DNA of 23,589 bases from a virus. The stretch covers positions 1 to 23,589 of the IMG/VR virus record IMGVR_UViG_3300042006_000142; one strand, given 5' to 3'. The first letter of the stretch is position 1. Each line of letters starts with the position of its first letter. The translations under genes and the position numbers were made by a program. The notes below the pieces were generated by a model, which saw only the letters and a list, made by a program, of their open reading frames with translations, was not told where the DNA came from and did no database searches. Shown here in pieces: positions 7,795 to 14,886 of the stretch.

Positions 7795-10700
7795 GCGTTC
7801 AGATTCCCCCACTGATAGCGCTTCACGCCGTTCTCATCGAACACCTTGCCGCCGTTGTTGTTGATGACCTGACGAGCGCCACCGCCCAACGGGCTGTTCA
7901 GCTCGAAGTTGCCAGCCTTGTCGATACGCCAGCCCTGAACACCGGCGATGTAGTTGTCAGACTGAATGAAGAAGCCGATCTTGGCGTTTCCGATCGATGC
8001 GTCCTGAATGAACGCAGCATTCATGAACACCTGCCCGCCCTGCACAGCGAACGGCACCGCAATGGCGCCGCCGGCAATGGTGTTGACGATGGCGAAGCGG
8101 TCAGCGCTGACCAGAAACTGGCTCTGGAGCCCGGCGCCGGTGTTCTCGATCCCGAGGCCAATGCCCGCCGCGACGTACTGCCCATTCGCCGTAACCTGCA
8201 TTTTCACCGACCACATCGTGCTCAGCTTGCCGGCGGTGTCCGCGTAGGCTGTTGACGTCTGCTGAATGGCCGCAGAGTTTTGCCCGACGGAAGCATTGAG
8301 CTGCTCGATCTTCGTCGCGGTCGCCGATTCGTTAGTGGCCACCACCTGTTCAAGCTCGGTGATGTTCGCCGCGTTCTCACCAATCTTCGCGTCGAAGGTC
8401 GTCACACGCCTTGCCATTGCCTCGTTCTCGGAGGCTCTAACCTTCGATTCGGAAGCGATCGCCGCAGTGCTGGTGTAGCTTTTGATCGCGTCCGCGAGAT
8501 CGCCAGCGCCGTCATCGTCTCGGTAGGAGGCGCGAAGGGCTTCGAAGGCCGTGGCTTGAGCAGTGACCTCTCCGTCGAGCTCGATAATCTCGGCGGTGTT
8601 GGTTGCCACCTGCTGGGCAAGACCGTTCGCAGTCTCAACGGTCTGCCCGACATCGAGCCAGTAGAGCGGATTCGGCGGATGAGTTCCGATCGGTACCGGG
8701 CCGGTGGCTTGGTAGATCCGCTTGCCCTGCACCACCAGGTCGTACTCTTCATAGGTGGCGTCCGGGTCGTAGCCTTTCAGGCCGTCGAGCGCATCGATCT
8801 GCGCCTGCAGGCCGGGAATCTTCTCGATTTCTGCCAGCAGATCCTCGCCGAGTTCCGTTTCGGTGATTTGTCCGGCGATCATTTCCAGAATGGCGGCGGC
8901 ATCCGAACTGGATTGACCCTGCACGCCAAGCCCGATCGGATACCACGGACCGATGTTGCCGATCTTGTCGACGATTCGCCCCCAGAAGTAGAAGGTCACG
9001 CCGGCGCGCAGGCCGAGCATGGAGAAATCGCTTTGCGGATAGGCCAGGTCTGTCAGCTTGGTCGCAGCTTCCAGCTCAGTCGTCGGCCCGTACCAGATCT
9101 CCGTGCGCTGGCTGTCCTCGGCCCCAGCAGGGAATCCCCACTTGAGGTAAATGCCGAACAGCAGCGGCGTGGCAGTCAGGAACGCCAGCGCCGGGGGCAG
9201 CCCCTGCTTACCGCTGAGGTTGGTCAGGATCGAGTTTCGCCACGGCGACGTGATGTCGAAGGCGCTCACCGCGCGCACCCGTGCCACATATGCGCCAGCG
9301 TAGATGCCGACGACGTCCACGTTGGTCATCCCGGTGCGCTGCAGCTTGATCCAGTTGCCGCTGTCCTTGCGCCACTCCACGTCGTAGCCGACCGCGCCAT
9401 CCACGGCCGGCCAAGTGATCGTCATGGTGGCCACGGCCAACCCCTGAACAACCGATGAAGTCGACGACAGCGAAACACTCGCCGGCGCCGGAACAACGGT
9501 GATCGGGATCACACTGATCGGGCGCTCTTCCAAGCGGGCGCCGGTGTCGATGAATGCGAACTTGCTCGGCTCGAACTGGAGCGCACTGATTTCGTAGTCA
9601 CCCTCGGTGGTGCGCTTGGTGCGAAGCACGCGGTACAGCGGGATAGCTAAGTCATCGGCATCGAGCGCCCATTGCAACTGCGCAACGGGCGGTTCGCTGT
9701 AGGCGACCGTGACAGTGACGGAGCGGCCGTTGACGCTTTGCACTGTGCGGCCTTCGGCGCGGCCGCCCGGGAGGTTGATGATCAGTCGATCACCGGCCTT
9801 GGCCTGGGTATCGCGATCAAGCGTGATAACCCGACCCGCCACCGCCGAGATCCGACCGCCGACTTCGCGACCAGCTAGCAGCGAATCCGCCACTGGGATG
9901 ATGTGTCCGGGCAGCGGGATCACGCCCTCCATACCGGTCTTGAACGAGACGGTGCGGTCTTGGTTGTTGCTGAGGATCGCCCACTTGCCACGGCGCTGGG
10001 CCTCAGATGCGCGGGTGCAGCCAATGGCGCTCAGCTCGGTGGGCCGGTCGCCATAGCGGCGCTGGAGATCCAGGTCGGCGAACGGAATGACATCGGTGTC
10101 GTAGTTGTTCGCTGGGTTGTCGTAGCTGACCAGCGCCCGGGTGTAACGGGTCTTCGCCGAGGCGCTGCCGTAGGAGAACTTGCCGTCGATCACGTTGGAA
10201 CGGGTGAAGACGTAGTCGAAGTCCTGCGCGCGCGGCATGTCAGCCTGCATCACAAGTTGACCCTGCGCCCAGTACGTCATGCCCCGGTAAATCGCCGAGA
10301 TGTCGCGCAGCAGCGACCATGCATCAGCCTTGCCCTGCAGGTTCATGTCACAGAGAAAGCGCGGTTCCTGGCCGCCCAGTCCGTTCGGCACCAACTGGTC
10401 GCAGTATTGGGCAATGCGGTACAGCTCCCACTTGTCGACCATGAACGGCTTGATGCGCTTGCCCAGGCCGAAGCGGTCTTCGGTGCAGATGCCGTAGGTG
10501 ATCCACGCCGGGTTATTGGTCCAAGCCGACTTCATCGAACCATCCCACGTCCCGGTGTAGGTGCGGGCGATCGGGTCGTAGTTGCTCGGGACCATCCAGC
10601 GGCGCGCCTTGCAATTCACAGTGACGGCCGGGATGTTGGTGAACTGCTCGGCGTCGAATTCGATGTAGAGCAGTGCAGTGTTCGGATAGCGCAGCTTGGC

Positions 10701-12428: not shown

Positions 12429-12851
12429 TCAGAGAGTCGTGGGCAGTATGTCTATCTGCCCATCGCCCCCGGTGAAAACTCGGTATTTCTTGACCGCGCC
12501 GTCTTTCACGATCGCTTCGCGCTCCACTCGGTCCGCGCCCATGGAGCAGATTCCAGATCCGGTGTATGCCGCACCGACTGAAAACGAATCAGGCGGTAGA
12601 TAGAACGATGCCTTCTGGCCTGGGTCGAGCTTGGCGGCCTGCTTGCCATCGATGAAAACGGCCATTGAACAAAGGCTTCCAGTCTGCCCAGAGTCGCGGA
12701 TCACTTGCAGCGTCCCATATGCCCCAGATGGCTTGGACTGGTAGGCCGACAGCTGACTTGCCGGCGCCTGCTTGGCTTCATTGGAAGGCGTCGGCGAAGT
12801 CGCACACCCCGCCAACAGCGCTACAGCCAGCGCTCCTACGATCAATTTCAT
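12429..12851 (-). CDS. Phage-encoded lipoprotein (accessory gene)
   Basis: This 140-residue protein has a signal peptide MKLIVGALAVALLAGC with lipobox LLAGC, so Cys16 is the likely lipidation site; residue +2 is Ala, which predicts outer-membrane sorting. The mature part has a beta-rich domain with VFIDGKQAAKLDPGQKASFY, similar in style to DUF2846/PEGA-type surface domains (recall only). The ATG at 12851 has GGAG at 8 bases; the 12 residues upstream have no such site. A terminator follows the stop at once, and another precedes the gene, so it is a self-contained unit. Phage lipoproteins in this position, such as Cor of N15/phi80-type phages, block receptors against superinfection; that role is only inferred. 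Confidence 0.85.
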   Translation of the reverse strand: MKLIVGALAVALLAGCATSPTPSNEAKQAPASQLSAYQSKPSGAYGTLQVIRDSGQTGSLCSMAVFIDGKQAAKLDPGQKASFYLPPDSFSVGAAYTGSGICSMGADRVEREAIVKDGAVKKYRVFTGGDGQIDILPTTL

Positions 12852-12904
12852 GCAGGTCACTCCTGTGGGAAAGCTGCAAGATATCACTGGCGCTGGCGGA
12901 AAAG

Positions 12905-13305: not shown

Positions 13306-13569
13306 ATGGCCCTTTTCACAGAAGAAACTGTGCAATATCTTGAAAAAACAAGATCGGCTCCAACGCTGCTAGGGGGAGCGCTTTGGACCACGATTTATGA
13401 CATCGGAGACACGGTTCCTGCGTCGGGGATCTATCGCTGCGAGGGGTGCGGTCATGAGATCACATCAAACAAGGATGACCCCTTCCCGCCACAGAATAAG
13501 CACCAGCACACCGGTAATTCCAAAGCGGTGAAGTGGCGTCTAATCGTCAAGACCGAAACCAAAGGATGA
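13306..13569 (+). CDS. Small Cys/His-rich (zinc-ribbon-like) protein
   Basis: This 87-residue protein starts MALFTEETVQYLEKT at an ATG preceded by GGAAGG at 6 bases; the frame is open back to 13258 without a comparable site. A central SGIYRCEGCGHEITSNKDD segment gives C-x2-C-x-H, followed by PPQNKHQH, a possible Cys2His2 metal site, though the two halves are only about 20 residues apart. The fold is otherwise short beta strands (VKWRLIVKTETKG at the end). It is on the plus strand, opposite to the tail genes, within the accessory cluster. The pattern looks familiar from small bacterial proteins of unknown function; no reaction is assigned. Confidence 0.7.
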   Translation: MALFTEETVQYLEKTRSAPTLLGGALWTTIYDIGDTVPASGIYRCEGCGHEITSNKDDPFPPQNKHQHTGNSKAVKWRLIVKTETKG

Positions 13570-13649: not shown

Positions 13650-13901
13650 GTGAGTACTGATCAAGTTGTACTGAATCAACAATTGGTGGATGCGGTCAAT
13701 GCCCATGGATCCGACATTCAAAGCCTAAACTGCGTTATTTCTGGCTTGGTACACCAATTGGCTCAAACACAAGGAAACTCAGGCCTTGATGCAGCTCGAG
13801 ATTATGCAATTCGAGTTGCGGAAAACATGCCCAGGAACTCCCTTGTAAAGCCAAACCCTCAGGCTATTCGCGACCTTTTCAATGGTCACAAAGCGGGGTA
13901 A
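13650..13901 (+). CDS. Hypothetical protein, accessory gene
   Basis: This 83-residue protein is read from a GTG with GAGG 5 bases upstream, beginning (M)STDQVVLNQQLVDAVNAHG. The longer frame from 13533 would run through the preceding hairpin and overlap the Cys/His-rich gene, so the GTG is preferred. It looks mostly helical and soluble, with ARDYAIRVAENM in the middle and a polar C-terminus. Its 3' end overlaps the end of the convergent J-like mini-gene by 23 bases. It probably shares a transcript with the gene at 13306. Not recognised. Confidence 0.6.
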   Translation: MSTDQVVLNQQLVDAVNAHGSDIQSLNCVISGLVHQLAQTQGNSGLDAARDYAIRVAENMPRNSLVKPNPQAIRDLFNGHKAG

Positions 13902-14097
13902 AGCCAAGCGCTTGCTCCAGCCGCGAAAGCCGACGCTCCAGCAGGTCGGCTTTCTCCTGCGACTCTTTGCCGAAATCCTCCGGCAGCGCAATACCAAAAT
14001 TTTCAGCTGAAACCAACATCTGGCTCGCGGCCAACCCAACACCGATACCGGCAACAATGGTTTTGCCATTGGCAGCTTCTTCAATTTTCAAATGCAT
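13879..14097 (-). CDS. 72-residue protein related to the C-terminal segment of J
   Basis: The protein has a hydrophobic-beta core, ANGKTIVAGIGVGL, then SQMLVSAENFGIALPED, then a short helix (KADLLERRLSRLEQALGF). The core lines up with J residues about 1048-1090 (ANGQYVAAGIGLGI ... SQFLVSADRFAI), with about 17 identities over 33 aligned positions and one gap in the mini-protein. It therefore looks like a free-standing DUF1983-like module. The second ATG (14097) is preferred: GGAG lies 6 bases before it but directly abuts the first ATG at 14103. It follows K by 24 bases and is presumably coexpressed with it. A tail-tip part or J-binding factor is plausible; no function is known to me. Confidence 0.75.
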   Translation of the reverse strand: MHLKIEEAANGKTIVAGIGVGLAASQMLVSAENFGIALPEDFGKESQEKADLLERRLSRLEQALGFTPLCDH

Positions 14098-14121
14098 ATT
14101 CATCTCCTGCGGGAATCCGCG

Positions 14122-14886
14122 TTATGTGTTCGATTGTGCATCTTTGTGCCTGAGGATCAGTCGCGTGCGATCGAGCCACGGCCCGCCGATGACAATGACC
14201 TCAGATGGCCTGCCATACAGGTGGTGCAGCAGGAACGGCCCGGGGCCGAAAGTCGCTGCGTCCTCACCCGGCAGCGCCGGATCGGCGCCGAGGAATATCC
14301 CGGCGTGGTTCGGGTAAACCGTGCGCCCCACTTCCATCACAATCATGTCGCCGCGTTGCGGCTGGTCGACGCGGAAGAAGCCGGCAGCCTCGTAGCTCGC
14401 TTCGTACAGGCTGGTGTTTTCCTTGCTCTCCCACCAGCCATCGGCGCGCTTGAAGGCTTCGAACTCCAGCCCCCACTCGCGCTTGTACCAATCGGCGCAC
14501 ACCTGCCAGCAGTCCCACGCCCCGTGCACAAATGGCCGTTTCAGCAGCGGCACCTCGCCGGTCGGCACGATGGTGCGCAGGTCACCTTCTGGCCAGCTTA
14601 GGATGTGCCAGGGCATCTCCATCGCTTCGCACATGGCGAGGTCGCGCGGTGACGGCCTGCTGGTGGCGTCCGGATGCGAATGCACAACGCCAATCACTTC
14701 GCCCACTTCTTCGGCCGCCGCGTACTGCTCGGGATCGATTCGAAACTCTTCGTTGGGCTCAGTAGAGACGTTGGTGCAGGGGAAATATTGTTGCTTGCGC
14801 CCGATCGCCAGTAGCAGCCCGCAGCACTCTTTCGGGTACTCGGCCGCCGCGTGCGCCTGGATCGCGTTCAAGATGTGCTTTCGCAT
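14122..14886 (-). CDS. Tail assembly protein K: JAMM peptidase plus NlpC/P60 hydrolase
   Basis: This 254-residue protein has two domains. The N-terminal JAMM/Mov34 metalloprotease domain is complete: Glu20, His69 and His71 (HSHP), and Ser79/Asp82 in the S-x2-D step. The C-terminal NlpC/P60 domain (from about 115) has the candidate catalytic Cys126 in AWDCWQVC and His194 in PNHAGIFLG. In lambda, K is needed for tip maturation and may cut peptidoglycan during DNA entry. GGAG stands 5 bases before the ATG and lies within the end of L, which stops 1 base upstream, so translation is coupled. Confidence 0.93.
   Translation of the reverse strand: MRKHILNAIQAHAAAEYPKECCGLLLAIGRKQQYFPCTNVSTEPNEEFRIDPEQYAAAEEVGEVIGVVHSHPDATSRPSPRDLAMCEAMEMPWHILSWPEGDLRTIVPTGEVPLLKRPFVHGAWDCWQVCADWYKREWGLEFEAFKRADGWWESKENTSLYEASYEAAGFFRVDQPQRGDMIVMEVGRTVYPNHAGIFLGADPALPGEDAATFGPGPFLLHHLYGRPSEVIVIGGPWLDRTRLILRHKDAQSNT

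Follow-up and report, generated by a model that had tools for sequence, protein, structure and literature searches.

A mini-protein gene resembling a segment of tail tip protein J and its convergent, leader-preceded partner: a putative antidote and blocker pair in a lambda-like tail operon

Analysis of a viral sequence of 23,589 nucleotides (IMG/VR record IMGVR_UViG_3300042006_000142; hereafter the window) revealed, within its tail-tip operon, two small convergent genes which we read, with a slight balance of probability in favour, as a defence and self-protection pair: the plus-strand gene P0007 would encode a blocker of tail tip protein J expressed in the lysogen, and the late-strand gene opposite it a mini-protein acting as a J-mimicking decoy. 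The observations behind this reading are the pairing of the two genes, their convergence, the leader of the partner, the mobility of the pair, the likeness of the mini-protein to J, and the recurrence of such likeness, with different pieces of J, in unrelated cassettes. The window represents a lambda-like tail region, in which genes for the tape measure protein, M, L, K, the mini-protein, a plus-strand pair, a lipoprotein, I and J follow one another (Table 1). An earlier note on this DNA had located the mini-protein gene directly after K and before I; K indeed adjoins it, but the plus-strand pair and the lipoprotein gene precede I.

Table 1. Location of the mini-protein cassette, its elements and its neighbours in the window
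Feature	Position	Strand	Basis, assignment or occurrence
Tail tip protein J, 1188 aa	7791..11357	-	inferred target of partner P0007
J segment 1051-1090, resembled by the mini-protein	8088..8207	-	sequence alignment
Lipoprotein gene (phrog_890), between cassette and I	12429..12860	-	at 60/109 leader loci
Small Cys-containing gene (phrog_15514), directly upstream of the leader	13306..13569	+	at 25/109 leader loci
Conserved structured leader of P0007	13571..13649	+	sequence and structure comparison
Convergent partner gene P0007, 83 aa, GTG start	13650..13901	+	predicted lysogen-expressed tail-assembly blocker
Mini-protein gene (P0001, 74 aa)	13879..14103	-	predicted late-expressed counter-defence protein, J mimic
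Conserved C-terminal helix of the mini-protein, residues 44-65, KESQEKADLLERRLSRLEQALG	13909..13974	-	family alignment, predicted structure
Inverted repeat AAAGCCGAC-n10-GTCGGCTTT in the mini-protein coding sequence	13926..13953		sequence, codon comparison
J-like segment, mini-protein residues 5-38, matching J 1051-1090	13990..14091	-	BLASTP, profile
Tail gene K, upstream neighbour of the mini-protein gene	14122..14886	-	annotation searches

The mini-protein open reading frame encodes 74 residues (MNMHLKIEEAANGKTIVAGIGVGLAASQMLVSAENFGIALPEDFGKESQEKADLLERRLSRLEQALGFTPLCDH); the 72 residues counted previously are those read from an inner ATG at 14097. In a BLASTP comparison with J of the same window, residues 5-38 aligned with J 1051-1090 with 17/40 identities (43%), 25/40 positives, an E value of 5e-7 and a gap of six residues, in agreement with the likeness to J residues of about 1048-1090, interrupted by a short insert in J, that had been recognized by eye. 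The mini-protein also matched a profile made from 50 non-redundant C-termini of J (E ~1e-6), and the Pfam family PF09327 (Phage_Tail_Tip, the C-terminal domain of J) matched its residues 5-39 (E 0.0014; 18.8 bits, below the gathering score of 22 bits). This match covers model positions 22-62 of 139 (~40), with the rest of the domain missing, and both score and coverage are too low for the mini-protein to be a family member. The similarity is thus confined to one short segment, and the description of the product as a single-module copy of J was abandoned; its C-terminal half, helix 44-65 included, has no J match. The predicted structure of the mini-protein alone consists of a strand pair (residues 6-9 and 15-18) in an N-terminal half modelled at low confidence, and of the helix, which corresponds to the helical tail proposed before. 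The region of J that corresponds to the mini-protein segment is covered by solved structures of lambda J. Matches were also found to PHROG families 37353 (E 1.8e-16), 27580 (E 1.5e-9) and 37385 (E 4.1e-5), for which no function is recorded, while none of the defence models listed in PADLOC was matched by the mini-protein, its partner or the two neighbouring gene products.

The mini-protein has relatives in phage records, in genomes and in IMG/VR; their C-terminal helix is conserved, their N-terminal half variable. The helix region is the most conserved part of the family, with L54, L55, E56, L59, R61, E63 and L66 being invariant, and is probably an oligomerising coiled coil or the part that binds the partner. 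Most members of the window's family carry another, FAF-type N-terminus, whose likeness to J is weak (E from 0.014 to 0.1 or worse), and for this reason the profile-profile comparison of the whole family with J gave only E 0.11; single-sequence and J-profile searches are the informative tests of J likeness here. Nearly identical partners (loci L007 and L012) accompany mini-proteins of both N-terminal types, and so, judging from these sequences, partner specificity may reside in the conserved helix. The same association, together with the high conservation of the helix, speaks for a different, rather unlikely arrangement, in which the two genes are still blocker and antidote, the mini-protein neutralises its partner through the C-terminal helix, and the J-like segment, instead of serving as a decoy, attaches to J or brings the antidote to the assembling tip. 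In unrelated cassettes, however, the C-terminal half is different or absent (mini-proteins of 42-60 aa at L138, L141 and L099), and it is the J-like segment that recurs across them. The decoy step could be wrong and the pairing of blocker with antidote right.

The mini-protein gene evolves as a protein under selection, as follows from the comparison with its nearest relative, in which dN/dS is ~0.16 for the whole gene and ~0.14 for the J-like part; values well below 1 also hold within the family. Its coding sequence contains a perfect inverted repeat with arms of 9 bp, in which the codons AAA GCC GAC and CTT are nearly invariant; from its sequence, this repeat looks like a terminator of the convergent gene placed inside the coding sequence, while it was not detected in a terminator scan. 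The near absence of nucleotide variation in these codons speaks for the view that the mini-protein is the relic of a J duplication, or a frame kept open only by its overlap with the convergent gene and the terminator-like hairpin. Such an origin is nevertheless highly improbable, given that the low dN/dS (~0.14-0.16) extends to the part outside the overlap and that a likeness to J has arisen convergently in several unrelated late genes. Among relatives in which the repeat is imperfect, G-U pairs tend to preserve pairing on the partner strand.

The 3' ends of P0007 and the mini-protein gene overlap by 23 bp. Each of the 26 loci in the initial collection has a small opposite-strand gene that converges on the mini-protein gene and overlaps or touches its 3' end, the partners belonging to three families with no detectable similarity between them. 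Depending on the locus, the pair is located ahead of the tape measure gene or at the M/L, K/I or I/J junction, and with such a varied position in the tail operon it can be considered a movable two-gene cassette. The P0007 model comprises a long and a short helix (mean pLDDT of 85), and Foldseek found no match for it among viral structures at E<=0.001. The earlier note had considered the mini-protein an exchangeable tip subunit, a J chaperone or a decoy blocking the tips of competing phages. As a virion or assembly component, with the opposite gene as an unrelated passenger moron, it would be well placed in a tail operon, and both its J likeness and a helix able to oligomerise would be accounted for; the invariable presence of the convergent gene (26/26 loci), the leader, the recurrence of the pair at varying operon positions, and a J site that follows the partner family (see below) make this role improbable. 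It is more improbable still that the mini-protein is itself a weapon, a dominant-negative J fragment spoiling the tips of co-infecting phages by means of its J-like segment and potentially oligomerising helix, because expression of a late-strand gene would be restricted to the time when the phage produces its own J; moreover, the constant convergent partner would be left without a reason. The decoy idea was therefore retained with its direction reversed, the better reading being that the mini-protein protects the phage's own J from the resident blocker encoded opposite.

Unrelated partner families have in common one leader of ~75 nt before the start codon. In the window it consists of a hairpin CCCAGTCCTT..AAGGACTGGG, a hairpin GCGCC..GGCGC, and a Shine-Dalgarno sequence lying within a TGACCT..AGGTCA palindrome. 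At least 119 IMG/VR contigs contain a 30-base part of the leader, nearly always 70-75 nt ahead of a start codon, and the genes behind it belong, among the matches listed, to ~20 unrelated families of small proteins. The consensus structure contains two hairpins and a weak third one at the Shine-Dalgarno sequence, with compensatory change in 4/20 pairs; Rfam has no family for it. With a covariance model, the leader was detected in 52 of the 299 genomes that belong to the same genus as Pseudomonas sp. CHM02. Around the 109 leaders listed, all tail-gene matches (564/564) lie on the opposite strand; 86 of the 109 leader genes face K, and 64 of those 86 have gene I behind them. A scan for consensus sigma-70 promoters found no site for the partner gene. 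At many leader loci the DNA upstream of the leader is conserved as well and represents a candidate promoter or operator; the elements CTGTACGAATCCCCAGTAACGC...TAGTAGCCTCTTGCC precede many leaders, e.g. L066 and L088. The small Cys-containing gene directly upstream of the leader is probably co-transcribed with the leader gene and is possibly a third gene of the cassette. The leader sequence allows further cassettes to be found directly, and may serve as bait for new morons.

The J likeness is not limited to the window's own family. A total of 157 late-strand open reading frames with a ribosome site, some of them alternative starts or 3' ends of K, face leader genes, and 16/157 matched the profile of J C-termini at E<=0.01 and 24/157 at 0.05, compared with 0/15,700 and 3/15,700 shuffled controls, respectively, and with 0/157 reversed sequences. 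Partner proteins yielded no match (0/109) even at 0.1, while ~26 of the 2,597 other late-strand frames matched, those that were read being pieces of J genes. When the facing frames were searched with profiles for the tape measure protein, M, L, K, I, the tube protein and others, no mimic was found, and all matches proved to be 3'-terminal parts of the actual K, tape measure or chaperone genes. The matched sites of J are 818-852, 976-1064, 1024-1075, 1048-1091, 1093-1127 and 1117-1160, and the site tracks the partner subfamily, with a mean distance of 12.9 residues within a subfamily against 82.6 under shuffling (0/10,000 permutations, a result inflated by the common descent of pairs). Two examples in which the likeness can be followed by eye are WRVLMVKHPQTGVYYAAGIKLG, corresponding to WSVKMQVTANGQYVAAGIGLG in J, and VAVPFLVRGDGRIYLNAATIKDLTVTNAKL, corresponding to IAVPFAVQGGQVFMNAAFIQDASIGNAKI in J. 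In a further set of 33 frames from genomes of other species, which partly represent families already in the first set, 4 matched J at E<0.001, compared with 0/6,600 shuffles. Several leader genes are opposed by a late gene without J likeness, or directly face K itself. At L061, L065 and L106, the protein encoded on the late strand is similar to J 818-852, a stretch well removed from the C-terminal sites to which the other cassettes correspond.

By analogy with known tail-assembly systems, we infer that the product of the plus-strand gene acts as blocker and the mini-protein as its antidote. During lysogeny, the genes of the plus strand would be transcribed apart from the late operon, behind the shared leader, so that the helical partner of 83 aa would be present. 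When another lambda-like phage makes its tails, the partner would bind the C-terminal fibre part of the J protein of that phage, and assembly of the tail tip would stop. Once the resident prophage turns lytic, late transcription through K would produce the mini-protein, displaying the J segment that the partner recognises. Lambda J is a trimer, and for this reason the helix of the mini-protein may oligomerise the mimic, giving an assembly that resembles the J trimer; the mini-protein is probably oligomeric. The mimic would then titrate the partner, leaving the phage's own J free to assemble. Since the J likeness is repeated and site-specific, the sequences suggest that the antidote copies the patch of J to which the blocker binds.

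Two tail-directed systems of this kind have been characterized. In phage JBD26, Tab is a blocker encoded opposite to the late genes under its own promoter, anti-Tab is an antidote in the late operon, the two show evidence of direct binding to each other, and the target is the tape measure protein (Patel et al. 2024, PMC10884400). In phi80, Tai blocks tail assembly, with escape mutants in the C-terminal part of J, and Ati is its late-expressed antidote, located in a noncontiguous operon (He et al. 2024, PMC11364771). The authors of both studies foresaw that more such systems exist (PMC10884400; PMC11364771). The layout of the window matches that of Tab/anti-Tab, with small convergent genes, a 3' overlap (47 bp in JBD26, JN811560), an opposite-strand blocker of 83 aa and a late-strand antidote. 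In contrast, the JBD26 pair is inserted between the small and large terminase genes and aims at the tape measure protein, whereas the window pair follows K, at the tail tip, with J as the putative target. The cassette also resembles Tai/Ati, and the J C-terminus, through which Tai acts, may be the target here too, as is suggested indirectly by mini-proteins that mimic C-terminal pieces of J. Tai is a protein of ~205 aa encoded before the packaging module. No homology was detected between the window pair and Tab or anti-Tab (hhalign probability ~1%; phmmer E>=0.08), nor did Tai significantly match any partner protein. Ati did not match the J profiles that mini-proteins match and is without resemblance to phi80 J, and no sequence mimicry of the tape measure target was seen in anti-Tab. 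Because sequence homology was not found, the window cassette is regarded as working like the Tab and Tai systems and not as a member of either. A search of the open literature, with subscription papers and preprints lying outside it, retrieved nothing on the leader, the cassette or the mimicry beyond the Tab and Tai papers and reviews citing them.

Extended to all leader loci, the data lead us to the tentative proposal, held at slightly less than even confidence, that Pseudomonas prophages draw on interchangeable J-directed blockers preceded by one leader RNA, each family having its own patch on J and its own patch-mimicking antidote. If true, one could read from the antidotes where on J each blocker binds, and the cassettes would constitute a large modular set of Tab/Tai-like systems in Pseudomonas prophages. 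An antidote that copies the binding patch of the target is, for tail blockers, unreported in the open literature searched, and it makes the J piece of each blocker a testable question.

Some leader genes form groups of their own. One family, with a GQTxFPYxxxT-like motif (L052, L063, L092, L096, L123, L137, L171, L172, L182 and L188), faces a conserved late protein (DVQDGRAEYLLSGPY) without J likeness. Another leader-driven family of ~200 aa (L064, L119, L144, L146, L165, L179 and L183) has no significant homology to Tai; its members carry a motif resembling the RNxxAH of HEPN proteins, which Tai likewise contains (MRNDLAHN). Finally, the product of the lipoprotein gene (phrog_890) that separates the cassette from I may act as a surface exclusion factor.
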